Below, piece by piece: positions 32,451 through 59,264 of a DNA stretch of 64,000 nt. The stretch lies in contig OX442429.1 in assembly GCA_949361645.1 (NCBI GenBank), positions 2,855,231 through 2,919,230 on the forward strand, written 5' to 3'. The position numbers and the translations under genes were made by a program. The notes under the pieces were generated by a model. That model did not search any database. It worked only from the letters and a program-made list of their open reading frames with translations, and had not been told where the DNA came from. Within the stretch, counting starts at the first letter, position 1; each line of letters starts with the position of its first letter. The DNA comes from Spongilla lacustris (taxonomy: Eukaryota > Porifera > Demospongiae > Spongillida > Spongillidae).

Positions 32451-32515
32451 GGGGGGGGGGGGGGGGGGGGGGGCAACATGCATATTTTGGCGCCCCCCCC
32501 CCCCCCCCCCCCCCC
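32451..32515. repeat. G23 - 19 nt - C23 hairpin
   Basis: A run of 23 G (32451-32473) and a run of 23 C (32493-32515) flank 19 bases. They can pair exactly and each could also form a G-quadruplex on one strand. Confidence 0.95.
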
Positions 32516-34026: not shown

Positions 34027-34113
34027 GCACTCATACGCAATCCTCAAGTTGTCTACACAGAAATGCGCACAACGAACAAGGATGTCAAGAGGTTTGACCC
34101 AGCCTTACAATTA
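34027..34113. repeat. 87-bp direct repeat, copy 1 (copy 2 at 34427-34512)
   Basis: TCATACGCAATCCTCAAGTT to TTACAATTACAG occurs here and again about 400 bases to the right with few changes. Copy 1 lies inside the right end of the 32227-34224 element. Copy 2 is in the minus-strand retroelement relic outside it. Confidence 0.9.
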
Positions 34114-34602
34114 CAGGTTGACATAACCCACCCGTGCCTATTGCCATGTACATTACGTTTACGGTTATACCGTACTACGGCCGCGGCGTAAATAATTACG
34201 TAAACTTTTTTATGACCGCTACTGTATTTCTCAATCAGGGTGTTGTCATAATGTGCGTCAGGAGTACAGAGTGCACGGCCTCATTCTTATACTGGTTTCT
34301 GTATGCTGTGAACCTGTATACCATTGAGGAGTTGGAAAAGTCATCGTACACAGATATTTAAAGCTGGGTGCTCCAAACGGAGTAGCATATCTTCTACAAG
34401 AGATTTACACCTTTGGAGCGCTCGGTCATACGCAATCCTCAAGTTGTCTACACAGAAATGCGCACAACGAGCAAGGATGTCAGAGGTTTGACCCAGTCTT
34501 ACAATTACAGGTAATCTGTTGCTGTTGCAAGTCATTTTTGTCGCAAGTCCTTCCATTTGGCAGACACATGAAATGATTCAGCTCGACACAATGCTTTATA
34601 CG

Positions 34603-36189
34603 CAGGGATTTATCTGGCTTTTATTTATGATGGGTGGGTAGGCAGCCGGGCACGGGTGGGTTATGTCAACCATGGAAGCTATAATGTGTCATATGCGTGC
34701 CAGAATTCAATTGTGTACAATCAATTCATGAATGATTCATACTGTAGTAATAGTTACAAGTATAAAGTACAGCATACACAAATCGATTTCCAGTGTTCGC
34801 AAAAAACATAATGATGCAAAGTTGATGCAAAAACTATTTTACCCTGTAATTATGCCATAAAGAAAAAATTTGCATTAATATGTTTCCTATATGCCTCAAT
34901 AGGAATGTCTGGTCCCTCCATTTCACAGAAACGTAGGTCTTCCAAGTGTCCCTCAGTCAATTTCGCAGGTTTGTCAAAATTCTGCTCATTGAAAATGCTT
35001 CAGCAGAACTTGATGGCAACAGCAACAATCTGATTGCAGCAAGCCTTTGACAGTAGGGTTTATGACAAATGCAGTTAGGTTGATAGTAGGTATACGACGG
35101 AAGATGTTACACTCTGTTTCTATGCTGGAAGCTAAAACAGGATCAAGACCGAGAGCTGTGTGCATTGAACACCAGTTAATAGAAAGTTTCTGTTCTACCT
35201 TATTAGGAAGCTCCTTGGATAATGTTTTTACAGTATCACTGAGGAGGAGCTCTTCCATATTGTCTGCAATGCGATCTCTATGTTTGGTGCACTCTGCAAT
35301 AACTTTATCTAAGAGCTGATGATTAGCAGTTCTATCATGAAATGTACACCAACATTAGCTTCAATGATTGGAATATTGCCAAAAGCATCTTGAATGATTT
35401 TATCAACCAAAAAACCCTCAGTTGTTGCTCTTGTAGCATAAATGCAGTCTTTTATGCTAGATGATGATGCCTGAAGACCAGTACTTAGAAAGTAATTTTT
35501 ACTAATAGTTTTTGCATAAACACAACTATTGAATATGTTTCAAAAGAACTCATCCACTTGACATAACCTGTTGCCTCTGCTGCACTGCTATCATCACCAT
35601 TTGCAATGGTCATCAGAGACAACATAATTGCTTCATACCTGTTGACTAGTCAAATACGACAGCCATCGGGTGTCACCCGGAATAACAACCTTGAGGAATA
35701 CTTGACCTAATGCTTCCTGAGCAGATTAACGCCTACCGATAGGCCTAATGGTACTAATTAATACCTCTTATAGTACACAAGCTCATTGAAAAAGGCAACA
35801 GTTAAGACCCTTCGTCCTTATGCAACAGTGTGGCTAAAAGTGCAGTAGCGGTGACAATTAGTACACGTATAATCGTATGTGACATACGCTTTGTCATTCC
35901 TACGCGACCGCTTTACTCGATTCGTCTTTACTCTATCATGGCGAAAAATGTGACGCAAACAGCACATTACGTGTACTTTTTTGTGACCGCTAATGAATAC
36001 CTGGGGGCAGAGGGGATTATAACAATGAAATCATTTATAGTCATGCAGCGCATTGAAACGATGACGCCCGCAACCAATTAACTATAAAAAGCTGTAATAT
36101 AATTTTTACGGGTGTGTAAAGCCCAAAAGTCACGGGTGGGTAAGCCCAAAAGTTACGCGTGGGTAGCGGGTGGGTCAGATAAATCCCTG
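34603..36189. mobile_element. Element with CAGGGATTTATCTG ends inserted in the BEL/Pao relic
   Basis: CAGGGATTTATCTG at 34603 is inverted at 36176-36189. ATACG flanks both sides (ATACGCA if the ends are drawn two bases in). Each end has several GGGTGGGT words. The interior has a minus-strand open frame (35258-34986) with no recognised domain. CAGGG ends suggest hAT, but an 8-bp duplication cannot be shown. Confidence 0.65.
35843..35995. mobile_element. 153-bp MITE related to the 32227-34224 element
   Basis: The ends CAGTAGCGGTGACAATTAGTAC and CATTAGCGGTCACAAAAAAGTAC (read inverted) share the CAGTAGCGGTCA terminus. It is nested inside the CAGGGATTTATCTG element. Confidence 0.7.
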
Positions 36190-37199
36190 ATACGCATCAA
36201 TGCTTCCATGTGACTTTCTCCTTCTGGAGAGGTAGACGCAACCTCCAGGACAGCAGCTTCATCCCATCAACGGGACGCTTGATCTACACCCATGAGACAG
36301 CCGTTTGAATTGAAACTGAATCTCACTAACAGGGTGTTGTCGATTTGGTGGTGCTTTCGGTAACCATTTGATGTATCAGTTTGAACATTGCAGTCCTGTA
36401 GGGTGTCAAAAATGTATCATCGATAATCATTTTCGTAGCTGGTTCTTGTGGTATGAGGTATCTCTTTGATGCAAGAGTCAAATTTTGCCCGATCAGAGGC
36501 TCACAAATCAAGGGTCAGTAAGCATTGATATGACATTCATTCCATCTCTTGTACAGATACTGAAATCAACCGCATCACATAGTTAGGATCTTCCATCTTC
36601 AGCAACAAATGTCCGTACCACCAAAGTCTCAGTTCTCTTTGTTGGTAGCTTAAGAACGTCTCGTATCCTGCATGTGACGTAAGATCTGTGGCTCCCAGCA
36701 CCAAATAGCACATGTGTATTCTGAGTGACTGCAGGAAAGCCTGGTGTGCAAACCATTACATTCACTGTCGGAAGAAGAACTTATGTCAAGTCCAGAAACG
36801 TAAATTAGGAGGCTGTGATGTACTGGAAGCCATGGTTGTTTTTCATTACGCAGGAGTACTTAGGACTAGATGTCCCCTGGCTTCAATATTGTGTCGGGGG
36901 AATGCGACTGCCCACAGTAGCAAATATTCACTGCCAAGGAGTTACTAACAGCTACCAATGTTGATACAGTTGAACCGCCCTTGACTGACCTTCTGTTGGA
37001 CTGGCTATTGTCCACAACTATATCTGCAAGCTTCTAGATCTTCATCAATGTGTCAAGGTCCAGAATTATTCTGAGACCTGCTGATTGTCATACACAACTG
37101 CTTCAGTAGATGTTTCATCAAAATAGATGACAACATAGATATTAGAGTAATGGATTGGAGATACAGGACTATGAATCTCATTTGCTACACATTTCGCGG

Positions 37200-37640
37200 C
37201 TGCAATGCTTGCTACGGAGTACCCCATACAGAGCACCCTATATGTAAAGCACACAACTAAGGATTGGACCTTATGGCTGACAGCTATATCGTATATGGAG
37301 TGGATCCTATGGCAATAAGCTATAGAGTATCGCACAGCGGATTCTTCGGCAGAAGCTACAGAGTACCCTACAGTGGAGTGGACTCTACTGCAAATGCCCC
37401 ACAGCTAACAGGTACTATATTTAGTGTACCCTATGGCAATATCAATTGCACACGTGCATCAAATGCTGCAACAGCTCTGCTATGGAGTACATGTACCCCA
37501 CAGCAAACAATCAACTATTTAGTGGACCCCATGGCAAATAGCTATGGAGTACCCCACAGCAAACAACTATTGAGTGGACCCTATGGCAGAAAGCTACGGA
37601 GTAGTACCCCAAAGCAAACAGATACTCCTTTGTCATATTC
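37200..37640. repeat. Degenerate minisatellite, ~55-65 bp period
   Basis: Seven or so diverged copies of a unit combine GGAGTACCCCACAGCAAACA and GAGTGGACCCTATGGCA with an AGCTA(T/C)GGAGTA core. The plus-strand open frame across it is a by-product of the repeat. The preceding 36766-37199 holds no supported gene. Confidence 0.75.
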
Positions 37641-37931
37641 ACCATGTTGGCGAAGTAAAATGCAATGAATTGATCAAGTTACATAAGTTCAATGCATGTC
37701 ACGGCTGTTTCAGGCCCACACGGTTGTTTGCGACTGGAAACTAAGTCAACAATTAGATCAATTACGGTATTACCACATTATTAGGAAACCATAGCTGCTT
37801 CTGTGAAGATGAGATGTTTAGAAATGCTGAGGATTGTCAGTGGTAGGTGGAGAAGCATCTGCCCTTATCCAAAATGAGGTCCTCATCCTCAGTGATGAAG
37901 AGAGGCAATCTTTGTTGGATAAGGCAGCACC

Positions 37932-38510
37932 ATGCAGGTCTGCCCACCTGGCCTCCACATAATGTTGGGGATCTTCACTAAGATGTTCCATTTACTGGAA
38001 GCTTTATGCTGTCAGCTGTACTTGGAATTGGCACGTCAAACTACTGATTTCGACTCTTCCAGCTTTTCCACGTACAGTCAGGCACTGCAGAGGCTTCCAG
38101 TGCTCCAAGCAGACCTTGAAAACACCCAGCATTCCCAGGAAGTGTTGCAGCAGCAGGTTACAACATGTGGCCTTAGTTCATGGGGAGAAAAACCCTCTAG
38201 CTGTGGATCTGCTGAAACAATCTGCTGAAAAAAAGAAATCAGTGAAGGCACTTGTATGTAATGATCCAACACAATTTATATTAAGTTTATGTCCACTATA
38301 GGAAGTAGAAGTGGCCAAATGCACAGCACTTGTGAAAAGAGGGTATTCTGAAAATGAAGGGCCCTTTGTCAAGGCACTCGACACTGCATTGCAATTTGAA
38401 ACGACATCAGTATTTTGGAGTGGCATTTATCGGTATCCGTGTCATAAGGCATTTATCGGTATCCGTGTTCATAAGGCATTGAGGGTAAACTGTGCTATGC
38501 ACGAGCTATG
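37932..38510 (+). pseudogene. Relic of a transposon-associated protein gene
   Basis: Two blocks separated by an intron-like gap are visible. The first is VCPPGLHIMLGIFTKMFHLLE plus a coiled-coil stretch (37932-38150). The second, after a TAG near 38300, has GPFVKALDTALQFETTSVFW ending in IRVHKALR. I recall similar CPPGLHI...GPFVKxLD proteins linked to transposons in sponges and cnidarians, but cannot name the family. A 32-bp tandem duplication (TTTATCGGTATCCGTG, 38428-38480) breaks the second block. Confidence 0.35.
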
Positions 38511-38900
38511 AATAATTCACACTGAAAGAAATTTCTCAGGTATCCAACATCCATACTCTTTACATGTCAATTTCACAATTGGCAGAAGAGAAATTGCCCT
38601 TCCGATCTGCTGAGGTTGCTGGTCATGTTCGAACTTCATCACTACATTCTCCTTATATGGAAAATGCCAAAATACTATGTGATGGGAACTTCGTTGATGA
38701 AGCACAAGCACATGCATTAGACCAGGTAGATAAACAATGTTTAGTGTACATGTCAAATATTGCATTAATTTCATTTTGTACGTGATTAGGAGCAATCCGA
38801 CATGTGGTAGCGAGTGCGCGGGAGGGAGGGAGAATGTACTCTAATCCAGTTCCAGCCGCAATATTGTGCATGGTCCTATTGATCCTGGTAAGCCAAGAAC

Positions 38901-41900
38901 ATGTCTGAACAAATTGCGAAAAGGAAACGGATGCGGGCTGGGCATAAGGCGTCCACACAGCACTTCCATTAGTGGCAGTAGAGCCAGCACTGGATGCTAG
39001 AAGAGCATGAAAACTTCCAAAGGTGGAGCTGAAACGATTTGATGGACGACTAACAGATAAGCCACGTTTTGGGACATGTTTCGATCCTCGGTACATAACA
39101 ACGCTGAGCTCACAGACATTGATCGATTTAACTACTTGCACTCATTGCTTGGAGGCTCTGCGGCAAATGCCATCTCTGGTCTCTCACTGACTACTGCCAA
39201 TTACTCAGAAGCGATCACTATCCTCCAGAGGAGATTTGGCAACAAGCAACAGGTAGTCAATAAACACATGGATGCCCTCTTGGAACATGATGCTGTCACA
39301 TTGATGCGGGACCTCAAGAGACTTCGCCACATCTACGACCAGGAGACTTCGCCACATCTACGACCAGGCTGAAGGCCACATTAGGAGCTTGAAATCACTA
39401 GGTGTACCATCAGAGTCATATGGAAGCCTGTTAGCACCAATCCTGATGAAGCGGCTACCTCATGATCTTTGTGTCATCATCAGTAAGGAAGTTGGAGCAG
39501 AATCCTGGAATCTGGACAAGATGATGGAAGTTGCAGAAAAGGAGATAGAAGCATGAGAACGAGCAGCCATGAATGAAGAGACTTCCAACGCACAGATGAA
39601 GAGGCTCAGCCATGACCGACCAACAGCAGCTGCCCTAGTTGCGACTAATCCACACTCACTGAGCTGTTATTACTGTGGAGAACAGCACTTATCTACATCC
39701 TGTAAGAATGTCACAAGTCCAGAAGCCCATAAACAAATACTGCTGAAGGCTGGAAGATGATTTGTCTGCCTCAAGAAGGGACACGTCTCAAGAGATTGCA
39801 AATCATCCCTCAAGTGTACCAACTGTCGCGGTAGATATCACATTACCATCTGTAATGGCTTGAGAAGAACAAGTCCTCCCGTGTCAGACCCTTTAACTTC
39901 ATCCCATCAGACACAGCAACCTCGGACATCTAATTTGGCTGCAACTCAACAACCTAGGAGCAACAACTCTACCTTGTCGATGTATGTTGATGCGCGCACA
40001 CCTGTGTTATTGCAGATGGCTACTACCATAGTGTACAGCAAGAACAGACCAGCAGTCCCAATGAAGGCCAGGTTGATTCTTGACAGTGGCAGCCAGAAAT
40101 CGTACATATACGTACTAAGGAATGAGCTGAAACTACCATCGGAGCGGTCTGTGACTCTGTCAATTAAGACATTTGGCTCGGAGACTGAGAGGATGCAAAC
40201 ATGTGATGCCGTTGAGCTAGGACTGAAGACAAAATTGTGCTTGGATCTTGAACTCACTCTATATGTGGTACCTTTCATATGTGAACTACTATCTGGACAG
40301 CCAACAGACATCGCAGTGGAGCGTTTCAAGTATCTGTCTGGATTGGACCATGCAGACCCAGATGACTCAGATAACCTACCCATCAGTATCCTGATAGGTG
40401 CAGACTATTACTGGAAAGTGGTCACAGGCAGGATCATTCATTCATGGAAGGGTTGGACCCACTGCTGTTCAGACTAAGTTTGGATAGGTGCTGTCTGGAC
40501 CTGTTACTGGACTTCACGGATCTGCAACGATGAACACTCTTTGCTCTCATGTACTGAATGCGGGGTGTACTCCACAACAGGATCTTTCTGACCTCGATAA
40601 GAAACTCAAGCCTTTTGGGAGCTAGACAGCATGAGGATCAGGCCAGAAGAGGACTCGGTCTACAGTAGGTTTACTCAGAGCGTCACATTACAGCAGGGTC
40701 GCTACTGTGTTCGACTTCCGTGGAAGGAACCACACCCTCTTCCTGACAACTTTGATCTTAGCAAGAGAAGACTCTTTAATCTCCTGAAGCAACTCCAATC
40801 TCCTCCAAACATCCTAAGCCAATATGATGCCATAATACGGGACCAGATGAAGAGCGGTATTGTTGTGACAGTGATGTCAGCAGGTGATGGGCCAATCGCA
40901 GGAGTTCACTATATCCCACACCATGCGGTTGTCCGAGAGGACAAACAAACCACCAAGTTGCGAATCGTGTACGATGCCTCGGCGTGAAATGGTGGACCGT
41001 CTCTCAATGGCTGCTTGTACACTGGACCCACATTTGGTCAGAACATTTTGGACATCTTGCTTCTATTTCGTCTCTACTATGTTGCAGTGACTGCTGACAT
41101 AGAGAATGCCTTCTTAATGGTATCAGTTGCTGAGGAAGATCGTGATGCTCTGCATTCCCTGTGGGTAGAAGACATCAAAAGTCCTCTACCAAGGCTGGTC
41201 ATTGCTCGCGTGGTATTCGGTGTGTCATCTAGCCCGTTTCTTCTCAATGCCACCTTGCAATGTCACATTGAACGCTACAGAAGCAGTGACCCATCGTTTG
41301 TGGACATGTTTATCCGTTCTATCTATGTTGATGATCTGACATCAGGAGCGGACACTGAAGAGGAGGCTCTACTTTTGGCAATGAAGGCAAGGGAGCGATT
41401 GGGGGAAGCTGGCTTCAATCTCAGGAAATTTGTGACTAACCTCCCTGCACTCCAAAAACATTAGACATCTTCTGGAATCCCAGCACCATAAATCGAGGGT
41501 CACTGAGAATCCTGTCACATGCGACGATGAGTCATATACCAAGAATACCCTTGGAGACAAGTTCGAGGCTCCAGAATTTGTGAAGATGCTTGGTGTCAAG
41601 TGGAAACCACTGGATGATCAACTTGTGTGTGGCCTCAGCTCTCTCCTCCGTGACATCACTGCTATGAAGCGTACAAAGGGGAACGTTATAGGCCTGTCTG
41701 CAAGGATTTATGATCCTTTAGGTCTTTTTTCTCCTATCACTGTTCAGTTTAAGATGCTTTTTCAGGATGTTTGTGCGGCAAGGCTGAACTGGGACGAGAT
41801 GCTGTCAGGGGTGTTGTTGACCAAGTGGAATTGCCTGTTGTCAGGTCTGGAGCAATCATGGACATTCTGCATTCCTCGGTGCTACTTCGATAGTTTCACT

Positions 41901-42157
41901 GGAACTACTTCTTGTACCTGTACCCTGATCGGGTTCTGTGACGCATCGCAGGAGGCGTACGCTGCTGTGGTATTCCTGAGAATGAGGGCAGCGGATCAAT
42001 GTGTCACATGCCTAGTAGCATCTAAGACGAGAGTTGCGCCCCTACATGGCCATACGATTCCTCGTGTTGTCTGCACTCCTGTTAGCCCGTCTTCTAACCA
42101 GCATCACTATAGCATTACAACCTGAACAAAATTTGGGCCACCCACTTTCATTCTTTT
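38901..42157 (+). pseudogene. BEL/Pao retrotransposon gag-pol relic, truncated by insertion
   Basis: Order: gag start (ATG 38901, MSEQIAKRKRMRAGHK), DUF1759 gag (KLPKVELKRFDGRLTDK, then 39076-39372), zinc knuckle (FVCLKKGHVSRDC near 39760), DUF1758 protease (ILDSGSQKSYIY, 40075). RT runs 40631-41460 with FIRSIYVDDLTSG. Pao connection (MLGVKWKPLDD, YDPLGLFSP) and RNase H start (GFCDASQEAYAAVVF, 41930) follow. Frames are broken at several points, including a 25-bp tandem duplication (39318-39367), a TGA at 39554 and a TGA after YDASA (40985). The homology stops at about 42157 inside RNase H, exactly where the AT-rich viral-type block begins. Confidence 0.88.
39318..39367. repeat. 25-bp tandem duplication in gag
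   Basis: GAGACTTCGCCACATCTACG begins at 39318 and 39343. The second 25-bp copy shifts the gag frame. Confidence 0.95.
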
Positions 42158-42168
42158 TAAAACTTACC

Positions 42169-42798
42169 ATGTTTAATATGGTATTTGCGGCTCCCAATAT
42201 TTCTCTATTAAAAGGTAATTCTATTCAATGTGACGACGGTACAAATATTATAACTGCAGTTTTGCCTAGTGGTGCATACGGAGTTGGTAGCACAAACGAT
42301 CTAGGTAATGCAGTAGCAGCGGCATTGACGGCAGCAGATGCAACTTCGGCGGCAATAACTTTTACATCAACTTATAACGATGCTACAAATTTATATACCC
42401 TCAGCGGCACCAAGCCATTTAAATTAATATTTAATTTATCAACTAGCATAAAAAATCAATACGGTTCTGATAATAGTACAGCTGTGGCAACATCTCAGAC
42501 GGCAAGTAGGTATCCAAATTTATACGATAATTATTTTCAGGTGCAAATATATGCCGATAATGCTACAACTCAATATGTTAAGATACCATCAAATACGGGA
42601 GTAACACAATGTAGTTTTGTTGTTCCTAGGCGAGTAGATTTTGGCGGGCAGCTATCTTTAACACAATCGGACATAACATCGCAATACATGAGATTTAATC
42701 GGTGCCCAACCCAAATTTCTTGGAACCTGACCCGCCCCAACGGACAGCCCTTAGAGCAACAGTTAGATTGGACCGCAGTGTTTGAAATAGAAAAATGA
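42169..42798 (+). CDS. Candidate single-jelly-roll (penton-type) capsid protein
   Basis: 209 residues, Thr/Ser/Asn-rich and predicted beta-rich. The pattern is a charged-poor start, then IQCDDGTNIITAVLPSGAYG, then an Ala-rich helix (DLGNAVAAALTAA), then strands (YTLSGTKPFKLIFNL) and a C-terminal region ending WNLTRPNGQPLEQQLDW. The strand, PSGxY, then NAVxxAL layout resembles minor capsid proteins of Polinton-like viruses and virophages. This is a pattern-level resemblance only. The frame is open upstream into the BEL/Pao RNase H fragment, so a chimeric ORF runs from 42034. I chose the ATG at 42169 because homology to BEL/Pao ends before it. It appears intact. Confidence 0.45.
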   Translation: MFNMVFAAPNISLLKGNSIQCDDGTNIITAVLPSGAYGVGSTNDLGNAVAAALTAADATSAAITFTSTYNDATNLYTLSGTKPFKLIFNLSTSIKNQYGSDNSTAVATSQTASRYPNLYDNYFQVQIYADNATTQYVKIPSNTGVTQCSFVVPRRVDFGGQLSLTQSDITSQYMRFNRCPTQISWNLTRPNGQPLEQQLDWTAVFEIEK

Positions 42799-43061
42799 TT
42801 GATAACAAAGTTCGCATGAAATCATAACTTAAAATCCAAACCTTAAATTATGGGCTTCATATAAATCAGTCTTCAGTCGGGCCGAGGTGGGATAGCTGCC
42901 TCCACAACTAAGACAAACGTAAGGTGCCTTTATCCGTTCACCATAATCAGTTAAGCAAAAATAGCCACTGTCTTTTTCACTCCAATGAACTTTCAACTCG
43001 TGAAGATTAAGTTCATCCTCGGTGTCTCAATTCATTGCACACATCATGCACCAAATTTTCT

Positions 43062-43349
43062 TCATGGTATAGGCTTTCTTAACTTTATATTTTCTAGTGC
43101 CACTAAGTAAGCCCATTGTTCTTTTTTCTTTTCTTCTGAAATGACAGTTGCCATGATCTGATCATATGCAGCTGGCTTTATACTTTTCCCCACTTGCTTT
43201 GTTCTAAACATAACACGTTTCACACTCTTCTGTGGGGGTTTTGGCTTTGCAGCGTCTTTCAGCACCGACCGCAACACCTCATCTTTTGTCAGCTTTGGAG
43301 GCCTAAGTGACTCAAAATCCACAACGTCTTTAATTGTCCTTGCCATCAA
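43062..43349 (-). CDS. Small basic protein of the viral-type block
   Basis: 95 residues, Lys-rich (KPKPPQKSVKRVMFRTKQ) and no known domain. Its start overlaps the stop of the upstream minus-strand gene (43346-43666) by four bases, as in compact viral gene strings. Probably co-transcribed with the next two minus-strand genes. Confidence 0.5.
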   Translation of the reverse strand: MMARTIKDVVDFESLRPPKLTKDEVLRSVLKDAAKPKPPQKSVKRVMFRTKQVGKSIKPAAYDQIMATVISEEKKKEQWAYLVALENIKLRKPIP

Positions 43350-43666
43350 TTTACCATTGACTGAACAGGTTCTATTCCAGGAGTTGACTGCAAAGCAGGA
43401 GGAGGTTCTGGTAACGACTGAGAAGGAGCTGACGGTTGTTCTAATTTTGGTGGCTCGTGAACTTTTTTCATTTTATTATGCGTATATACGGCACTCATTG
43501 AACCAGCATAAATAAGCATAAATTGTATATAGGATGGTATTTTTTTACTGCCTGTAAAACCTGAATCTATAAGCGTCATTACTAAGGCTTTTCGGCAACT
43601 TACTTTTGTAACTTCGCTAAATCCTGTGACGTCATAACGAAACGAAATCAACATATTTTCTATCAC
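43346..43666 (-). CDS. Unknown protein with hydrophobic centre and proline-rich tail
   Basis: 106 residues. The middle (IQFMLIYAGSMSAVYTH) could span a membrane. The C-terminus is Pro/Ser/Glu-rich (PSAPSQSLPEPPPALQS). It overlaps its downstream neighbour by four bases and follows the 43672-44115 gene with a five-base gap. Function unknown. Confidence 0.5.
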   Translation of the reverse strand: MIENMLISFRYDVTGFSEVTKVSCRKALVMTLIDSGFTGSKKIPSYIQFMLIYAGSMSAVYTHNKMKKVHEPPKLEQPSAPSQSLPEPPPALQSTPGIEPVQSMVN

Positions 43667-43671
43667 TGGAT

Positions 43672-44115
43672 TTACATTATATCAGCTTGTTTCGGAGGAC
43701 AAGTTATATCTTCGCCGACACTAGCTTTCAATTCCTGTTCTATAGCTTGCAACTTTCCCAATTCGGCACCGTCGGCCAAAACTTTATCAACTTTTGATTT
43801 TAATTTTTTACTAAATACTGCACCATCCGTTTCAAAAACGGAATAAGATTCTCTCCATCTCCTAAGTCTTCCCATCAATAACAATTCTTCCTTATCGTCC
43901 TCTGCATTTCTACTATCTGCTTCGGCTTTAGCAATACTTTTCATAAAAGCTACATCCTGATGCTGAGGAAATGAAACACGAGGTGGTTGTGGTTGCAGCT
44001 GTTCCTTCTTTTCATCTTCCATTTCCGATTCGGAAGAGTCTGAATCCTTTTCGAATAGAACGCTATTTACTCCACTATCTGGCGGAATAATTTTGTTAAT
44101 ATTTTTGTACTCCAT
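43672..44115 (-). CDS. Acidic coiled-coil protein of unknown function
   Basis: 147 residues. The N-terminal third is acidic and Ser-rich (SDSSESEMEDEKKEQ), followed by helical heptad-like sequence (MKSIAKAEADSRNAEDDKEE) and a Lys/Glu-rich C-terminus ending CPPKQADIM. It diverges from the 44165 gene across a 49-base AT-rich gap that must hold both promoters. No family recognised; a structural or scaffold role is possible. Confidence 0.5.
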   Translation of the reverse strand: MEYKNINKIIPPDSGVNSVLFEKDSDSSESEMEDEKKEQLQPQPPRVSFPQHQDVAFMKSIAKAEADSRNAEDDKEELLLMGRLRRWRESYSVFETDGAVFSKKLKSKVDKVLADGAELGKLQAIEQELKASVGEDITCPPKQADIM

Positions 44116-44164
44116 TTTGAATATATATCTGCTATGATGTTACTATTACCAATATTAATCTAAT

Positions 44165-44473
44165 ATGGAAGCGAAAGAAGATTATTCTACCTCTGAATCC
44201 GAATTTTCCGATGAAGAAATCTCTACCGAGCCAAAAGTGCCCAAATCCCAGCCAATCGCTGTCGAGAAATCTTCATCCACCCCAGACTCAAGAGAAATCG
44301 ACAAGTCAATAGCTGTCGACAAATCTCTTCCTAAGGATCAAACTCCTGGTCAAGTCCTCTCGAAAGATATTGAAAAAACACCTCCCCAGAGCAAATTTAA
44401 GGTAGATAGTTTGGCATATTATAAGGACCAAGCGAGGACCTTGGGCATCAAAGGTTTTTCGAAAAAGAGTTAA
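44165..44473 (+). CDS. Acidic protein ending in a SAP-like helix
   Basis: 102 residues: a long low-complexity Ser/Glu/Lys/Pro stretch, then VDSLAYYKDQARTLGIKGFS. That last part has the spacing of a SAP DNA-binding motif (LKxxAxxLGIKGxS). The stop at 44471-44473 cuts the motif; the following bases (KVLKELIAQKLNP) continue it in another frame. A frameshift in an originally longer gene is therefore likely. Confidence 0.45.
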   Translation: MEAKEDYSTSESEFSDEEISTEPKVPKSQPIAVEKSSSTPDSREIDKSIAVDKSLPKDQTPGQVLSKDIEKTPPQSKFKVDSLAYYKDQARTLGIKGFSKKS

Positions 44474-44823
44474 AAAGTATTGAAAGAGTTAATCGCTCAG
44501 AAGCTAAATCCTGAGAAAGTTAGCTCAGTAAATTCTGAAGAAGTTTCGAGTGTTGTCGAGCTATCTACAAACTATCTGAAGAAGACTTGACCAGGACTCC
44601 TCCCGCCGATAAAGAAATTTCGAGTGTTGTCGAGCCAGACGCCAGAGAAAAATCGATAATTAGCAAGCTAAATGGCCAGCTATGTGACCAACTTCGGCAA
44701 ATGTGTAGAGATTGCTCGCCCAGAATTACTATATCAAAATACGATAGTTCTCTGAAAATGACCCGACCAAAAAATAAAGAAGAATTGATCAAAGACCTAA
44801 CTGTTTATTGTCTAGAGCATTAA
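44474..44823 (+). CDS. Second SAP-like segment, probably the 3' half of the broken gene
   Basis: After the broken frame the sequence continues with SSVNSEEVSSVVELS and a stop (44588). It then continues, in the frame from 44587, with PADKEISSVVEPDAREKS and LRQMCRDCSPRI, ending ELIKDLTVYCLEH. The EEVSSVVEL/KEISSVVEPD words recur, so two similar modules lie in tandem. The current reading needs two frame changes. The open part alone is 78 aa. Confidence 0.35.
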
Positions 44824-44862
44824 TTTAAACGATAAATCTCATAAAAGTATTGACATAAAAAA

Positions 44863-45138
44863 ATGAGCGCGGAAGCTACTGCTAGAAAATACGCTGAAAA
44901 TTTGGAGACTTATCTACTTTCCAAATCCAATAATCTTGGCAAAGAGATATCTGACTTGATATCGAATCTTAAGACGATAGATTGGAAAAATATGTATTCC
45001 AAAACAATGATATATCGAATACTATCTGACGAGGAAAGGCTAAGTACAATAAAATCCAAACTTTCTTTTCTCACAGACGCCGAGTGCTCGCTAGTTAAGC
45101 AACATATAGATTATATAGTAGATTTAGCAGCCCTATAA
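44863..45138 (+). CDS. Small helical protein, unknown
   Basis: 91 residues, almost entirely helical in character (ARKYAENLETYLLSKSNNLG, then ISDLISNLKTIDWKN). The ATG at 44863 follows a stop-rich AT gap of 40 bases. No family recognised. It is intact and compositionally like its neighbours. Confidence 0.5.
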   Translation: MSAEATARKYAENLETYLLSKSNNLGKEISDLISNLKTIDWKNMYSKTMIYRILSDEERLSTIKSKLSFLTDAECSLVKQHIDYIVDLAAL

Positions 45139-45222
45139 TGGGCTTGCAATCGGAATGCTTAAGCATTCAAAACCATACCCTGCTAATGGGCTTGCAGCCC
45201 ATGCCCTATAATGGGCTTGCTA
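45135..45222. repeat. TAATGGGCTTGC x3 at convergent gene ends
   Basis: The 12-mer occurs at about 45137, 45184 and 45211, together with GCTTAAGC and GCAGCCCATGCCC palindromic words, between the stops of the convergent genes. It could act as a bidirectional terminator or a recombination repeat. Confidence 0.7.
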
Positions 45223-45504
45223 TTGGCTACCCTTACTTATTCTCTTACTATTGATCGAGCCGTCATATAGCCCAAAAGTATCTACTCCAGATTTTTGGTA
45301 AAGTCTAGATAAATGTTTACTAGATTTGGCTGCATTATTATCGGCAAATGCTTTTATTCTTTCTACTCTGGCAATACCTAATGTGGCACCAGCTGCTATC
45401 TTACTAATGATAGTCGATATTCCCACTATTCCAACTATTAGTAATATAATAATGCTGCAAAAGTTGATAATGCTCCATATATTCTTCGGCTACGCATTAA
45501 GGAT
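45220..45504 (-). CDS. Small hydrophobic membrane-type protein, probably frameshifted
   Basis: The minus-strand frame ending at 45220 contains INFCSIIILLIVGIVGIST, a membrane-length hydrophobic run, then IISKIAAGATLGIARVERIK and a polar tail. There is no ATG in this frame before the upstream TAG. An ATG in another frame (45504, MRSRRIYGALSTF) precedes it, so a one-base frameshift near 45440 is likely. A minor virion or membrane protein is a guess. Confidence 0.35.
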
Positions 45505-45623
45505 CTAACGTCTCATTCATAATCCTTAATAACATCTTGGCCTAACTTTTCACCCAAATTTTATCTGATTTCTAGATTCACAGGTTCCATTTCAAATAAT
45601 ATTTTCATCTTCTTATATTCAAC

Positions 45624-46050
45624 ATGGAAAAACTACGAGAAATATATTACTCCAAAAATGGATACTGGCACGGACAGAAGGCAATAGAAATTCTATGTAA
45701 AAAAACAGGACTATCTACTAGCGTTGTTTCTCACTGGCTAAAACGTCAGCCAATATGGCAGATATATTTACCTGGACCAAAATATATTCCTAGACCAAAG
45801 ATAGAAGAAGTAATTCCTAACGGTGTCCACCAAACAGATATATTATATTTGCCTCACACGGTTGGTAGAAAAACTTATAAATACTGTTTATGCGTGGTAA
45901 ACGTAGCTAGCAGATATAAAGATGCAGAGCCGTTACTAGATAAGACAGCTGCACAAACTACAGCGGCTATAATAAAAATATATCAACGTGGACCACTAAA
46001 ATTTCCAAACTTAATTCAGGTCGACGCTGGAAAAGAATTTTTAGGAACAT
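45624..46050 (+). pseudogene. Retroviral-type (rve) integrase, Polinton-type, 3' truncated
   Basis: The N-terminus (MEKLREIYYSKNGYWHGQKA) has a helix-turn-helix-like part (CKKTGLSTSVVSHWLKRQ). The core follows: first Asp in VHQTDILYLPHT, second Asp in IQVDAGKEF. Sequence in between (YKYCLCVVNVASRYKDAEPL) is a clear rve core. The region with the third catalytic acid is missing: from about 46045 the frame runs into the antisense of another gene and stops at 46110-46112. The copy cannot be active. Integrases of this kind insert Polintons and some virophages into host DNA. Confidence 0.75.
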
Positions 46051-46186
46051 ATATTATTTCTACTTTATTCTTATTAAACGTTTTAGCCTGTAACTTTTTA
46101 TCTTTCATATAAACTACCATATAAAACACACCATCACGTTTAACATTTTCTTTTTCAGTCTCAATTTTCAGCAGATAAGTCTCCAT
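46016..46186 (-). pseudogene. 5' piece of another element gene, fused to the integrase break
   Basis: A 56-residue minus-strand frame starts at ATG 46186 (METYLLKIETEKENVKRDGV, then FYMVVYMKDKKLQ). Its last dozen codons are antisense integrase sequence. The gene is therefore cut at the same junction (about 46045) that ends the integrase, and an internal deletion joined two head-to-head genes. Confidence 0.5.
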
Positions 46187-46202
46187 GGTTATATAAAATG
46201 CT

Positions 46203-46595
46203 CTAGAAAATTTTAATATAAAAAATTAATCCATTGGATACCATCGTTTCGATTTTTCTATCAAATATAATAGAATCTATATCGGGGTAGTAATAGACAT
46301 CGTGTTTAAACTTACCATTCATATATGCGTTAAATATAAATGACATCTTAATATATCGGTCAAGTTGGTATACACTTATAAGTAATTTACATTCATCGAA
46401 GGCTCTAGAGTTACCAGCAGTATAAATCACTTCAGCTTTAAGATGTGTAGAGTTTATAATTACTTTATATTTTCTTTTAAAATCTGCACAGCAGTTACAT
46501 TTTTTACAAAAGGTACCTACTTCAATATAAAATATTTTTTCAGTTTTGATTGACAACTGCGGATCAAAAGCTAGCACTGCATCGTACAGAGGCAT
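46203..46595 (-). CDS. Unknown protein with CxxCNCC motif
   Basis: 130 residues starting MPLYDAVLAFDPQ, with a Cys cluster CKKCNCCADFKRK near residue 33 and many Tyr/Ile residues. No family recognised. It is 16 bases upstream of the truncated 46186 gene on the same strand, so they probably formed one transcription unit. Confidence 0.45.
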   Translation of the reverse strand: MPLYDAVLAFDPQLSIKTEKIFYIEVGTFCKKCNCCADFKRKYKVIINSTHLKAEVIYTAGNSRAFDECKLLISVYQLDRYIKMSFIFNAYMNGKFKHDVYYYPDIDSIIFDRKIETMVSNGLIFYIKIF

Positions 46596-46656
46596 TCTTA
46601 TTATGACATATAACTTATTAATTCTAATAGATCTTTTTGTAATGATTTTAAATTTT

Positions 46657-47079
46657 CTAAGAAATGAATTTGCTCATAAAATAATCTTTGTTTCTCATCA
46701 TAACATTATGAGTTATTAAACATAATTTCATTTCTAGCATACCTATAATATGCTGTTGTATATCCATCAAATATTTTTTCTCTTTTTTACGATCTTCTAG
46801 ATCTCTTTGTTTTCTACGCTCTTCATTTTGTTTCATAAGTATATTATATTGTCTCTCACGTTCTTGCCGTCTTCTCAGTAATTCTCTTTCTCTCTGATAT
46901 GCTTTTGTGTAATACATTTGTTCTTCATTATGTTCCTTTCTCTCTTCCTCATAGGCCGCAATTTCTTCAGCCTCTTCAGCTTCTATATCATCAATTCATC
47001 AACCATTCTCATTATCTCTTCATCTTTACATTGTACATCTTCATAATCCTCGAGCGTTATCTGTCTATCGTCTGCCATT
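46657..47079 (-). pseudogene. Charged coiled-coil protein with one frameshift
   Basis: The start ATG at 47079 gives MADDRQITLEDYEDVQCKDE and reaches a TAG after MVDELMI (about 46990). The next frame continues at once with EAEEAEEIAAYEEERKEHNE and then RERELLRRRQERERQ, ending near 46657. A one-base frame change near 46995 divides one coiled-coil gene of about 140 codons. Function unknown. Confidence 0.45.
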
Positions 47080-47199
47080 TTGGTATATGTAATAGCAGAT
47101 AAATTTCTAACAAATATCAAAAATTATCTAGAGGGTTTAGCAACCAACATAAAGATTAATATCCCTTATCAATTAATCTTGACAACTTTCTATCACATA

Positions 47200-47401
47200 A
47201 AAAATTCCGAACAAAAATAGGGTAGAGGGTTCTGCTAATCATAATGAGATTAGTATCAAGTTTTTGTCAAGTTTTTGTCAACTTTGTGTAGCGAGTTAAC
47301 AACTTTTCCCAAAACGAAAAATTCCGGACAAAAATAGGGTAGAGGGTTCTGCTAATTATAATGAGATTAGTATCATGCGTTTGTCAACTTTTTGTGTAGC
47401 G
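47200..47401. repeat. 117-bp tandem direct repeat at the right edge of the viral-type block
   Basis: AAAAATTCCGAACAAAAATAG starts at 47200 and, with one change, at 47317. The second copy is about 85 bases. The sequence GGGTAGAGGGTTCTGCTAAT is shared. It could be a terminal or regulatory repeat. Confidence 0.85.
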
Positions 47402-49284
47402 ATTTTATGTCTCTCGGAGGCAATACGATTTGTCCAGCAGTAGTAATATGGTGGATAGACTGACATACGGACCCACCCATCTACAAAAGAGCCCGCCCAG
47501 GCCCAGTCAATCTATTAGTAACATACAAGTCTTAAACTAGTTGAAAAAGCTGTTCATCCTACACTCCACCGAGACTTGTCGTTTTTATGAAGTGAAAAAT
47601 CGATTCATGTTGGTGTTTTCGGAGAGTTTACTTTTGAATGCTTATTGGAATATGCAGAAGTCAGCAACTATACAGATAGAAACAAGGCTCTGACGGAGTC
47701 AATGAGATTACTATCGTACACTCCAGCGAGACTTGTCAAGACGGGGCGCCCTCGATAAATGAATGAAGCGATTAATCAATTAATATTGGGTTTTATCGAG
47801 TAATACCAAGTAAGACGTACAAGGCGTATCAGGACGTCACGTCCCGAAGGAGCACCTCGACATGTTTATAAGGGTTTGCGGGCTTCGTTGTAGAGGTTGG
47901 GTCCGAATGTCAGTCAAACCACCATATTACTACTGCTATAGAGATACACGCAAAGAAAGTCGAAGAGCGATGCAGTGGAGAATAAAGCCAAAAAGAAGAG
48001 GAAAACATATAACTGCATACAGTTTGCAAAGGATTTGCACTCCAAATTCCTTATCAACACCTCCCTGGACACGCACCCACCCACCCATCTTCCTTTTCTA
48101 TCCAGTGGTACCACAAACATGGGCCCAACAGTATTCCTTTTGAGTGGAAGGCCCACACAGAAGTTGACTGCGTGGTGATATAAAAATACATTTATAATTT
48201 TATATGCTGCATGTAGATGTGTATGTAATAGTACTCAGATATGTCATCCAAAACCACCTCATGCAGGCTGTCCAGCCCACAATAGTGCAGCTCAGATTTA
48301 CGTGGAATAGCCCCTGCCATGCAGACAGGCTTCTCAGCACAAGACCATATACTTGCCAGTACCAACAATCCAGACGTACTGGACCAACTTCAGTGTCCCT
48401 TGTGCCTGACAATTGTGCACCACTGAACCATTGGAGCTACTATGTAGGGCACTGGCTGCATCGGCATATCATACACTGGTTCATGGCTTCCAACTGCAGT
48501 AAGATCAAGTGTCCATGCTGCATCATGGACACTCCTTTGGCTCCTTCACCGCTGAAGCCCACACCACCATTCATTCAGACCTTGCTAGTGGTACATTGCC
48601 AGCAAACCTGTGGGAAGGAAATACGGGCTGGTGAGTACAGCACTCACACAAGTGTGCAGAAGAACCTGGACCTTCAGACGCTGATGTGCAGACAGCATGT
48701 CACACAGTCACTGGCTTCCACCAGCTCTCAACCGATCATCTGAGGGAGAAAGGAGCAGAGTCCATCCATACCAAGTTGACTTCTTGCAACGTACGTACCA
48801 TTCGGTACTTGACCCAGTTTAGAAGACTGTCCTTGATTATGAAGGAGCACCTGCTTCCTATAGGTCCACAAAATGAGGCAGCGATCTCTCCCCCTGATAC
48901 GTATACCGTTAAATCAGCAATACGCATCTCTAGCCCAAAAAAGGCGGCTATAAGCTGATAATGGAATCAGTTAGTACCTTCTGTTATCTCTAAGATTTAC
49001 TTGAATCAAAACGTTTTACCGGTGGGGAGCATGGAAAACTTACTTCAAAGTGGAGAGGTACGTCGATGGTTACCCGCTTTCACGAATCATAACTTGCCGT
49101 AGCGTCAAAACTGTAACACGAGAAACGCAGTATTTGTAGAAAGATGATGCTTCTTTTGTTTCGAGGTTTTAAATGATGCTGGTATAATTCCTGTTTTTGT
49201 ACAGGAGGCTCATGTTTCTTGGCTCTGGTTGCCTAGGACGTTGCTAAGGGAATACGTAATCATTTCAATATTTCGGGTTATAAA
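47402..49284. other. No assigned gene; possible coding patches
   Basis: BEL/Pao RNase H sequence is not seen resuming here. A plus-strand segment at 47975-48060 (AKKKRKTYNCIQFAKDLHSK) and a longer open frame at 48204-48743 look partly coding, but I recognise no family. An open frame at 48686-48958 overlaps in another phase. Confidence 0.35.
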
Positions 49285-50995
49285 CCTACTGTCCACAAAA
49301 TATATGGCCGCAAACACCTATGAGCAGGCAAGAACTGTATGTTGCGGAACTCAACACGAGGAAGAAGCGCCGAGACGAAGACTGGACATCTTTCGGAGAC
49401 GCCTTGCGGGTGTTATCTGACAAGGCCTACCCTGACTTGGAGGACAAGGCGAAGGAACGCCTATCCCTAAATCAATACCTGTCACAGATTGAAGACTCTC
49501 ATGTTGCCTTTAGAGTACAACAGAAACGGCCCAGTAATGTGGAAGAAGCTGTTGCGGCTACTATAGAACTTGAGTCGTACCTGAACGCCGCCGCGAGTTC
49601 TAGTAAGTCTCACCATCACGTTGACGTTGTAGAAATCAGCAAGAAAATCACAGTGGGGGGACGGCACTGAATCAGCAGCAGTTTCTGGTGTTGCTGGTGT
49701 CGATGAGAAACTACTAACAACATTGGAAAGCTTAAGTGAACGACTTCACAGGTTGAACAGGAGACGTCTATGAGAAGCAACAAAGATCACCCTCCGGCGA
49801 GGGTAGAGAAACAGCCAGACAGGCGTAGGCACATCGTATGTTGGAACTGTGGCATAAAGGGTCACATAGCTCTGGTTTGTAGAAACAGCTCCCCGCTAGC
49901 ACAGCAGGGAAACTTCAGTCCCTCGGGGGTAAGGGCCACCCTTGCGAGGGAAGATTTGTAATGGCCCATCCAGACAAAGTCGCTGTTCTCACCTATACAT
50001 CATTGTCTGCGTATTGTTGTTCTTGTTATTTCTGTCCCTATTGAAGCTTTAATTGATACAGGCGCCGCTGTCTCACTTCTGCACACCACGTTACAAGACA
50101 AGGGCAGCCTGTCACAACCACTGCAAAAGTGGACGGGACTGGGGCTTACTGGGGTCAATGGCAATGCTTTATCAATAAAAGGCTGTGCGCTCATCCCAGT
50201 CGTGGTGGAAGGAGGTAAAGAGTTCAAGGTATCATTTGTTATTACAGATGATATCATGGCGGGTGCAATTCTTGGGCTAGATTTCTTAGGGGCCAATAGC
50301 AGTGTCATTGACTGTGGTAGAAGGGTGCTTACCTTTCCCTCTGGGGAAATGTCCTGCTCTCTTACAGATGTCCCAATAAAGATCATTGGGCTAGTTAATA
50401 GTATAATGATAACCATACCTGCTATTAGTGAAATGAAAATCATGATACAACCGAAAAGTCCTGTTGGTAATGGCACGTGGATTGTGGAAGGTGATTATGT
50501 TGGTATAGACATGGGGTTATGGTTGCAAACGCTATAGTGCATTCACGCGGCTATTGGCAGTTCGAGGTAGAAAACGAGGATAGAGCAATGACTGCTTTCA
50601 GTACCCTGGATGGGCTATATATGATTTTAAGGTAATGCCATTTGGACTATGTAATGCCCCAGCCACATTTCAGAGATTAATGGATAGGGTATTGCATGGG
50701 TTGAAATGGCACAGTTGCTTCGTTTACATCGATGATATTGTTGTGGTTGGGGCCAACTGTAAGGAGCATTTATATAATCTAGCCTATGTGCTCAAAAGAC
50801 TGAGGGAGGCGGGGCTGAAGTTAAAACCCACTAAGTGCAACTTTTTATAAAAGGAAGTTAGGTATCTTGGGCACGTGATTTCAGAAAATGGAATTTCCAC
50901 TGATCCATTAAGACAGACGCAATTTGAAAATAGCCAACCCCACAGTGTATGCGGGAAATTTTGCAGTTTCTAGGCCTAGCTAACTATTATAGACG

Positions 50996-53508
50996 CCCTT
51001 CACCTGCGAAGGGCACATTATTGTGCCCGATAGTAGCGCTTGCGCAATGCGGAAGGCACATTAATGTGACGAGCGGGATGCGCGTACGAACAATATGCAT
51101 TACGCGGTTTACATTTAGAAACTGCAGCTGTCACTACATATTTACACACTACGTAACCTATAGAGTTTTTTATCGACGTCGATATCGTGATAGCATTCGA
51201 CATGGCGTGCAATAGAAAGCTCCCATCCGACCCCGAATTTCTTCTCCAGTATATGGAAGATATGGATAGCGATATGAGCGATGACGAGTTTGATGGCTAC
51301 GTTGAGGAGCAGGGAAATGACGTGTGTGTGGACGAGGAAACCACAACGGATGTGGGCATGCATGAAGCCATGCAAGTTGATGAGCAATATGTGTGTGAGG
51401 AGGCATTGGAGGAAGGAACAGGAGAAACAGTGATGGTGATGGATGTAGCAGCAGAGGAGGAAATTGTGATGGACGAAGCTGCAGAGGAGGAAGCCAGCCA
51501 TTTGATTCCTCCTTTTAGAACAACAACTGGTGTCACCAAGGATATGAGCAGCTTTGAGCCTGTAGACTTCTTCCTGGAACTGTTTCCTAAAGAACTGCTT
51601 GCCTACATTGTAAAGGAGTCAAACAGATATGGGCAGCAGTATATGGATAGTCGCGCTGCATACCTGGCACAGCATCCAAAGGCTAGGGCTGGGGAAACCT
51701 ATTATAGAAGAGGACATAAAGAAGTTCCTGGCCCTCGTGATAGCCATGGGTATAGTGAACATGCCAGACATGCAACAATACTGGAGCACCACATGGCCAT
51801 TTACCTCCACCAACTTTTCATCCATCATGAGCCATGACAGGTTTCTGCTCGTGCTGAAATTCCTGCATTTAGCTGACAATACAACGATGGCAGCGAAGGG
51901 TGAACATGGGTATGATCCACTGTACAAACTGAGGCACCTTTTGTCCACACTGGTCCAGTGCTACAAGCAGAGCTACACCATGAAGAAGGTCAGTGTGGAT
52001 GAAAGTATCATCTCCTACAAAGGTCGCTTGTCATTCCTCCAGTACATGCCTAAAAAGCCCCACAAGTGGGGCATGAAGGCGTGGGTACTTGCTGAGGCAG
52101 CAACTGGGTATACATGGAATTTCTACCTGTACACCGGCAAAGAGAAGCGACCAGCTGTTCTTCCACTTGGCACCCAAGTAGTCATCGATCTGCTGAAGGA
52201 TCTAGTGGGGAAAGGGCATCATGTTTACTTTGACAATTTTTACACGAGTCCTCAACTGTGCAAAACACTGCTTACGCAAGGGTTTGGAAGCTGCGGAACT
52301 GTCCGCCTTGACAGAAAGGATATTCCTCTCTCCTTCAAGCCCAAAGCAGTCCAGGTTGGGCAGGTGGTATACTACACAGATGGACCCCTTCTTGGCCTAA
52401 AATGGATGGACAAAAGAATTGTATCACTACTGACAACAATTCACGATGAGACTATGATAACAAAAACAAGGCGTATAAAGGGTGCACCACAAGGACAGCA
52501 GGTCATCCTAAAGCCACAAGGGATTGACGAATACAACAAATACATGGGTGGTGTAGACAAGGCAGGGCAACTGGTGCAGTATTACGGGTACAACAACTTC
52601 GCAAAGAAGTGGTGGAAAAGAGTCTTTTTCCACATGGTCGATGTTACATTAGTAAATGCCTATATCCTATACTACACTGTTACCACTGGGAAATGTTTAT
52701 CCCACCTCAACTTCAGGATCGCTGTAGCAAAAGGTCTGCTTGCTCAAACTGATGCAGAAATACCAACTTTTTCAGAAGACACTCCTGCTAGGTTATTTGG
52801 TCATAACCACTTTCCTGAGCCTGCAGATGGCAGGCAGGATTGCACGGTGTGTAGCAACAGAAAGGCTGGCAAGAGGGTCACCACCTCATACAGATGCTGC
52901 ACATGCAAAGCACCACTTTGTATACATCCCTGTTTCAAAACATATCACACTGTTATGAATTACTAACTATCCAGATTTACATGTATAAATGAACATGTTG
53001 TCAGTATGACATTTGTTTACTATGTATCGTAAATTTTACCTCCTGTGATGTATAAGGTGGAAACATATTCCAGAGATCATTTCTGATTAGCATCTGGAAG
53101 TTTGACGAATCATCTAGCATTCCAGCTGCCAATACAATCAATGTGGTTGATCAGTCCCGAAAGATATCTAAAAGTAAATGCATGTAAGTACACAGGAACG
53201 CTAGTGTAAACACTTACCGTACATAACTGAGGTATCAGGGCTCCTTCGAGAGCGAGCATAGCTCCACTGTTCCAAATACTCGCACTCAAAGTTCGGCAGC
53301 GATGCGTAAGTACACGCCTAGCGCTCAAATTATATAAATCGCTTAGAACAAACACTTCTCAACTCACGTTGAAAATATCAGCTCCATCGGACGCGTCGCG
53401 TTCGAGAAAAGCCCGCAAGCGTTTGTACGCTCGAATTTGAACATTTCTATTTAAAAATCCTCCGCATTACGTGTGCGCGTCATGAAATTAATTAGCGCAG
53501 GTCAAGGG
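50996..53508. mobile_element. piggyBac transposon, 2.5 kb, nearly intact
   Basis: The left end CCCTTCACCTGCGAAGGGC and the right end, read inverted, CCCTTGACCTGCGCTAATTA form the terminal repeats. TTAA follows the right end (53509-53512) but not the left, where GACG abuts. Internal palindromes (GGGCACATTATTGTGCCC) lie near the left end. The element interrupts the RT domain of the Gypsy relic. Confidence 0.85.
51202..52966 (+). pseudogene. piggyBac transposase with one frameshift
   Basis: ATG 51202 gives an acidic N-terminal region (SDMSDDEFDGYVEEQ and further Glu-rich repeats), then FRTTTGVTKDMSSFEPVDFF. A single-base frame change at about 51670-51695 moves to the frame that ends at 52966. 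That frame has the DDE core: VSVDESIISYKG (Asp 1), VYFDNFYTS (Asp 2), YMGGVDKAGQ (Asp 3). A C-terminal cysteine-rich finger follows (CTVCSNRKAG, YRCCTCKAPLC, HPCF). Total is about 588 codons, the normal size for the family. All three catalytic Asp and the zinc finger are present, so this is a recent copy, dead only through the frameshift (or a sequencing error). Confidence 0.88.
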
Positions 53509-55223
53509 TTAAAGATTTTGCGTCTGTTAGTAGACCACTCCAGCGTCTGACAGAGAAAAATGCCCCATTTTGCTGGACTGAACAGTGTCAAAAAGCATTT
53601 GACGATCTTCGCAACTGCCTGATTAATGCCCCCCATTCTAGCGTATCCGGACTACACAAATCCATTTGTTCTTGATACTGATGCTAGTATTAAATTCTGG
53701 GATAGGGGCAGTTCTGTCACAGGTCTAAGAGGATGGTACTGAGTGTGTTATAGTGTATACTAGTTGATCGCTAACCAGGCAAGAAAAAAGTATTGTGTCA
53801 CGCGTAGAGAGCTCTTGGCAGTTGTGGAGTTTACCCACCATTTTCGACCATATCTACTTGGGCGACAATTTACACTGAGAACTGACCATGGATCACTTGT
53901 TTGGTTAAAAAACTTCAAGGAACCTGAAGGCCAGCTGGCACGCTGGCTGGAAAAGCTGCAGGAGTATGAGTTTATCGTTATGCATCGTCAAGGTTCCAGA
54001 CATGGGATCCCGTGCAAACAGTGCGGAAGGGGTGTTTGACCGGTGTGGAAACGAAGATGATCAGGTAGTCGAAATTGGTGCTATTACGGGTCCTTTCTTG
54101 CAACTCAACAACCTAGGGGAAGTTCAACGCCTGCAAGCAGAGGATGACGACATTGACCCCGTACTGAATGCTGTCAAAGAGGGCAAAGTACCTCCAGGGG
54201 ACACTACCAAGTCTTGGAGCCGAGAAAGTCGCCTTCTCTTACAACAGTGGGAGATGCTAACGATCAAGCATGATGCACTTTGGAGACAGTTCTCAGATGG
54301 GAAAAAGGTGAGGCTCCAACTTGTTTTACCCTCCAGGTTACACAAAAAGGTCATCCGGGACTTGCATGAAGGTGCGGTGTCAGGGCATCTGGGAGAAGAA
54401 AAAGTGCTGTCTCAGCTCAAAGAACGATTCTATTGGCCAGGCTGTGGCGAGGCAGTAAAAACATGGTGTAGACAGTGTAAAATTTGTGCCTCCAGGAAGG
54501 TGACGATTTCAAGCAGAAAGGCAAAACTACAAACCATTCAAGCTGGTTATCCTATGCAGGTCGTAAGTGCATATATCATGGGATCACTTCCAGAAACAAC
54601 AGACGGTTGCAGGTATGTGCTAGTGGCTGCTGACCACTTAACGAGATGGGTGGAAGTGTACGCTATCAGAAATCAAGAAGCTATTACTGTAGCGAGGAAA
54701 CTTGTGGACGAAATGTTTTGTAGGTTTTCTCCCCTCGAACAGTAAAATAAAGGGGCCTAAGGGCTATCAATGCGTGCATTTCGACAGGCTGAAACCGTAT
54801 CAAGGAGAAAATAGAGAATTCCAGTCTGAAGCCCCACTCAGCCAATGGTTCACGGAACAGCAACTAATCCCTGAAGACCCGCCCCCACGCACCCCTGCAG
54901 CGATGGAGTTGTTGGATGATGACGAAGAAGAGCAACAGCTGGATGGGCAGGCGAACGAAGATCAGCCTGAAGTTGCACCCGCTGCGGATCCTCCTGCAGT
55001 CACGCCCGCTGCCGATCCTCCTCCTGGTCATCGGTACCCTGCTAGAGAACGCCGAGCCCCTCAGCCCCAGACCATTACGGACCGGACATTCAATTTTGAA
55101 AGGAGGGAGTGGTGTAACGTAATAGTGACGTCATTATTGCGCAGAGACAAGTGCGCATCCTCCAGAACTTATATAGCTGTATATATTTTTGTATATTGGC
55201 ATTCGTGTATATGTGTTTGTTAA

Positions 55224-59215: not shown

Positions 59216-59264
59216 ATCCGAATAACCCGAATAACCTGATAACCGGTTACACACCCTAAGCTGC

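Follow-up and report, generated by a model that had tools for sequence, protein, structure and literature searches.

A stretch of 64,000 nucleotides from the freshwater sponge Spongilla lacustris (the window; C16:2855231-2919230, by whose own numbering block positions are given below) contains a block of foreign DNA that is confirmed as real, with corrected edges. With a probability of about 0.9, we read the block as what truncation and decay have left of one copy of an integrating element that has inverted terminal repeats and measures 27-29 kb. The element is predicted to be a Polinton-type virus and probably belongs to an undescribed lineage of freshwater sponges. The original prediction, made from the letters of the window, had likewise proposed an undescribed lineage, which is plausible and unproven; its central claim, that the block is a deleted Polinton-like element, was borne out. 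Specifically, a genome search for longer copies (248.6 Mb in 51 contigs, numbered C) found a fuller copy on contig C10 with polymerase, ATPase, capsid gene and terminal inverted repeats, and hence more than an ordinary transposon with an rve integrase, while structure searches with the protein encoded at 42169-42798 returned a predicted penton (capsid) fold.

The C10 copy spans 29,257 bp between inverted repeats of 344 bp at 908486 and 937742 that are 97.4% alike, and TGCCG stands on both of its flanks. A search of the genome with the terminal repeat gave 18 matches, including four pairs that frame copies, namely C10, C5 (26,713 bp, duplication TGTTA), C21 (17,966 bp, GCCCT) and C2 (14,173 bp, CGAGC), so that all four copies with both ends found possess a perfect 5-bp target duplication. 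The lengths of the C2 and C21 copies suggest that both are internally deleted. The terminal inverted repeats begin with AG, and unintegrated linear DNA of the element would end at AGCAGTAG. Unpaired repeat ends were also seen among the matches listed, at C12:208859-209125 and C16:6291556-6291812, and the latter is likely another partial copy because an ATPase match lies 10 kb inward.

Between its repeats, the C10 copy encodes a family B DNA polymerase (PolB), an rve integrase, a packaging ATPase, a predicted double-jelly-roll capsid protein, a penton and a fibre-like protein. After the capsid protein and penton come the nine genes that the window retains, then a 208-aa gene and finally the repeat; across 4.2 kb of this last part, a copy on contig C13 is 85% identical. 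The polymerase is present as an 815-aa open frame (L066:2-2446) and a 359-aa open reading frame (ORF; L052:8916-9995), both between the repeats. Taken singly, neither piece matched PF03175 (DNA_pol_B_2), and the homologues P0029 and P0030, which are 89% and 63% identical to the C10 frame, match it at E 2.6e-14 and 3.5e-18, respectively; the frame also includes an Endonuclease_7 stretch (E 8.3e-6). The ATPase of the C5 copy (L082) gives a weak Pox_A32 match, at 23.2 bits just over the 22.8 cut-off, and contains the stretches GPPGRGKS and VILDD, which we read as Walker A and B; ATPase matches occur at 19 places in the genome. What we read as a fibre-like repeat protein is 798 aa long in C13 and divided between two ORFs in C10; its one PHROG match, a weak one (E 3.1e-4), was to a structural protein of virions. 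Two further element proteins, of 221 aa and 604 aa, matched no family above cut-off.

The C10 copy also contains an ORF for an OTU-type cysteine protease (E 2.4e-7; ORF L052:3461-4066 in the region L052:2820-4066), adjoining an ORF that by our reading resembles a retrotransposon. Part of the length of C10 around this ORF may be a later insertion, or the OTU ORF may be cargo. A 162-aa ORF in the same copy (L052:4421-4909) gave weak DUF5710 and Mut7-C matches, both below cut-off.

The proteins that would build the shell were examined through structure models. The model of the window's penton (pLDDT 72) had capsid or capsid-derived chains in all of its top 27 structure rows, mostly adenovirus penton bases, and it also matches the mavirus penton. 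For the major capsid protein (MCP; 552 aa in C13), the N-terminal jelly roll of the model matches double-jelly-roll capsids and the second jelly roll is unmatched (pLDDT 53, pTM 0.35); one row from the BFVD database bears the name Adintovirus (penton; E 1.4e-6, TM 0.19). Judging from the model, residues 384-503 of the capsid protein may form an additional domain whose fold resembles one on virions of mycobacteriophage Bxb1.

Both proteins recur throughout the genome, the counts of matches and loci being lower bounds. The 209-aa protein at 42169-42798 has at least 43 genome matches; apart from itself, 15 are nearly full-length and 84-89% identical, and another group stands at about 50%. Merged into loci, the penton (251 aa in C10) lies at a minimum of 35 places and the capsid protein at a minimum of 39. 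Of the 35 penton loci listed, 32 have the capsid gene within 1 kb, and the two genes stand head-to-head in all 32. Capsid lineages inside this one genome are only 43-51% identical. Among 16 near-full-length penton copies (84-100% identity) drawn from the 43 matches, 15 are free of stop codons, and the 120 pairs have a median dN/dS of 0.12 and a median dS of 0.45. For the 15 pairs that involve the window copy, dN/dS is 0.08 and median dS 0.79; because the changes are mostly silent, most of those in the window penton are likely older than the decay of the copy.

Within the window, the copy is not a chance assemblage, because its DNA, with the BEL part excluded, recurs at 26 further places in the genome (97 rows, 65-90% identical). 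The original prediction had placed its borders at 42158 and 47401. Homology to other element copies begins at 42149 in four of the seven copies compared and at 42160 in the other three, and the right edge is the end of the inverted-repeat terminus, so that the block stands with edges corrected to 42149 and 47937. The block had also been described as apart from all surrounding DNA in base composition, and this is true in part. GC content is low throughout, at 0.278-0.410 in the eleven 500-base windows from 42000 to 47499, and 35 of 48 flank windows (30000-41999 and 48000-59999) reach at least 0.42. The other 13 are lower, and since the flank minimum is 0.330, the block undercuts all flank windows only at 46000-46999 (0.278 and 0.290); elsewhere it is low, but values as low occur among them too. 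As proposed, small and densely packed ORFs crowd both strands and most of the proteins lack a known family, a Pfam scan having matched one of ten below E 0.01.

That match is the retroviral-type integrase that the original prediction had recognised, with an rve core (PF00665) at 45624-46112 scoring E 5.8e-7 and 30.2 bits, slightly below the cut-off of 32.6; the longer C13 integrase reaches 45.8 bits. The last third of the protein, which presumably would hold the third acidic residue of the DDE motif, is gone from the window copy, and this copy is therefore likely immobile by itself. When 16 element proteins were searched against the whole window with tblastn (E 1e-4), nine were found, all from the penton-to-integrase end and collinear with the C13 and C10 copies; the predicted "ten or so proteins" thus become nine genes, five of which are fragmented (Table 1). 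The seven not found by this search were the capsid protein, the fibre, the 604-aa and 221-aa proteins, the ATPase, PolB and the 208-aa gene.

Table 1. Features of the block and its left border (window positions)
Feature	Positions	Strand	Evidence
Whole decayed element copy, left-deleted	42149..47937	+	Penton side left, inverted-repeat terminus right
Left flank, end of BEL/Pao fragment	42000..42148	+	8 BEL rows; Peptidase_A17 in 41580-42125
Penton (vertex capsid) gene (predicted), first 37 residues lost	42151..42798	+	87% to C10 251-aa protein over residues 38-251 (tblastn); fold match
152-aa gene, zinc-finger-like by our reading, two pieces	42832..43232	-	tblastn with C13 gene, 53% and 57%
293-aa gene, no assigned function, two pieces	43361..44115	-	tblastn 79-81%
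215-aa gene, no assigned function, two pieces	44165..44820	+	tblastn 70-81%
91-aa gene, no assigned function	44863..45138	+	tblastn 92% over residues 1-89
137-aa gene, no assigned function, two pieces	45223..45602	-	tblastn 77-95%
Integrase (rve), residues 1-144 of 210-aa C13 ORF	45624..46052	+	Pfam and tblastn
138-aa gene, no assigned function	46209..46595	-	tblastn 79% over residues 1-136
144-aa gene, no assigned function, three pieces	46607..47075	-	tblastn 33-68%
Subterminal repeat, two 100-nt units, 85% alike, spacing 117	47179..47395	.	Collinear with C19 repeats
Terminal module	47436..47937	.	Internal inverted copy of terminus (from 47436) and terminus proper (to 47937)

At the left border, eight BEL rows start at 42000 with 79-91% identity and stop at 42120-42148. 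The neighbouring domain had been said to be a BEL/Pao RNase H cut at this edge. A cut-short domain is indeed present and is named by Pfam as Peptidase_A17 (Pao; E 1.9e-37, accompanied by RVT_1 at E 2.8e-7), and it is truncated at the border, since the match covers positions 1-130 of a 162-position profile. The further idea that the element lies inside a BEL/Pao retrotransposon is not supported. The left neighbour is BEL/Pao, yet the following 975 bases, taken from a BEL copy on C15, had no match in the window by blastn or tblastx, and no repeat common to the left and right flanks was found. Because the BEL rows end here and no continuation was found in the window, we read the border as a joint deletion breakpoint rather than as an insertion into BEL.

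No single DNA match of the window copy is longer than C24:5826543-5829808 (86% over 3 kb). This copy is likewise a deletion form: after its integrase stretch, a terminus of the same sequence variety as the window's comes within about 200 bp. An inverted copy of the terminus occurs at the right end of the window copy (47179-47937) and at the PolB end of C10; the two integrase ends examined, in C10 and C13, are without it (regions C10:937172-937742 and L060:1367-2531). The integrase end of the window copy may have been swapped for the other element end, which would hint that linear genomes with inverted repeats can exchange their ends.

By homology, the mechanism would be that of Polinton-type viruses. 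PolB would copy the linear genome, presumably with protein priming, and the ATPase would package it inside a shell of predicted double-jelly-roll capsid and penton proteins. The particles so formed would carry the element by infection beyond jumps within one genome, and the integrase would likely insert it into the host chromosome through a 5-bp staggered cut. The window copy likely goes back to such an insertion. A deletion would then have removed roughly three quarters of it from the left (PolB, ATPase, fibre and capsid protein), together with the 3' part of the neighbouring BEL, and decay would have come afterwards.

Several observations weigh against a Polinton-type virus. PolB between repeats was seen in C10 only, without a completed genome-wide PolB survey, and the ATPase frame of C10 is broken. 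No adenovirus-type protease was found with Pfam profiles among the element proteins scanned, a set smaller than all ORFs. The penton structure matches have an rmsd of 5-7 and more. The capsid protein model is poor at the values given above, with its match confined to one jelly roll; non-viral rows (BMP9 at 6.8, PNGase F at 6.7) score about like hexons, and TM-scores by query in BFVD do not exceed 0.25 for these rows. Searches of IMG/VR with MCP, penton and ATPase gave no match, leaving the capsid without a free relative there. Finally, the target duplication is 5 bp, as opposed to the 6 bp of vertebrate Mavericks (PMC8097293), and for this reason the element is filed as a Polinton-type virus outside the vertebrate Maverick group.

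Among other explanations, the one that survives best, unlikely as it is, holds that the element is a capsid-carrying transposon confined to the cell, which spreads within the sponge genome and keeps its capsid genes for another use. Many copies in one genome and a capsid without free relatives in IMG/VR are what it would lead one to expect, and the low penton dN/dS suits an active capsid-bearing transposon as well as a virus. Nevertheless, that low ratio, the conserved MCP-penton pairing, the fibre-like repeat protein with its one weak virion-protein match and the divergence of capsid lineages in a single genome together suit repeated entry better, and none of these is decisive. Repeated invasion of the sponge germ line by a little-known virus lineage has likely left its record in these copies.

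A virophage-type element, needing a giant virus that infects the sponge or protists living in it as symbionts, is improbable to a further degree. The gene set of C10 appears sufficient for copying and packaging, the structural matches are unspecific to virophages, and the contigs that hold the copies are several megabases long and belong to an animal-like genome. The virophage-like label of the original prediction is likewise not favoured, the element having its own PolB; mavirus, too, has PolB. An ordinary DNA transposon with an rve integrase (Ginger-like), lying next to ORFs unrelated to it, can be set aside as next to impossible, for although the integrase is the sole family match within the window alone, C10 has capsid, ATPase and PolB inside one repeat pair and the nine window genes are collinear with the C13 and C10 copies. 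We lean modestly towards a fuller picture of the Polinton-type virus, as a freshwater-sponge lineage with at least two capsid clades, a hexon with a phage-type surface domain, long attachment fibres, 5-bp integration and many germ-line entries.

To our knowledge, the DNA viruses of sponges are little known, and no paper on sponge Polintons was found by title or start of abstract within the open-access literature searched. If the reading is true, a very early-branching animal has adenovirus-like DNA viruses of its own, and a capsid-bearing Polinton-type lineage in a sponge would offer an outgroup for tracing how animal Polintons and adenovirus-like capsids arose. The diverged copies would suit dating through orthologous insertions in related sponges, and the phage-type capsid domain, if real, would be a decoration common to a eukaryotic jelly-roll virus and tailed phages.

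Relatives were sought among 5.8 billion proteins, where the capsid protein had at least 15 hits, the two named among the matches listed both being from Ephydatia muelleri, a freshwater sponge of the order Spongillida; the penton had at least 13, one of them the window's own. The E. muelleri protein EMCRGX_G007882, which matches 59% of the query at 33%, combines a PolB domain with a MATH domain, and a PolB-capsid linkage in that sponge is suggested because capsid-like EMCRGX_G007879 is three gene numbers away and their contigs are equally long. The IMG/VR contig IMGVR_UViG_3300028392_002905, which we read as a Polinton-like virus, resembles the element in its PolB (35% identical over 1237 columns), its integrase (E 8e-7) and an ATPase-like ORF (BLASTP E 4e-6), each in a single comparison, and by our reading in fibre-like, 477-aa capsid-like and 280-aa penton-like ORFs. 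It differs in gene order, and its capsid and penton reached an hhalign probability of 0.3% each and so are not alike by this comparison, although the profiles are shallow and a distant kinship may exist. Mavirus and Tetraselmis viridis virus S1 have protist and algal hosts, and the sponge penton alignment matched no PDB chain at E 1, the mavirus penton included. A divergent capsid in an early-branching animal has a precedent, because cnidarian MCPs fall outside the main Maverick-Polinton group (PMC10120064).

From animal Polintons and Mavericks, including adintoviruses, the sponge element departs in its 5-bp duplication, its capsid proteins without family match, a possible phage-like capsid domain, a large fibre-like protein, the lengths of its two longest copies (26.7 and 29.3 kb) and the protease not found among the proteins scanned with Pfam. 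With them it has in common a viral/organellar-type PolB, an rve integrase, a packaging ATPase, a predicted jelly-roll capsid and penton, terminal inverted repeats starting with AG, and insertion into animal chromosomes.

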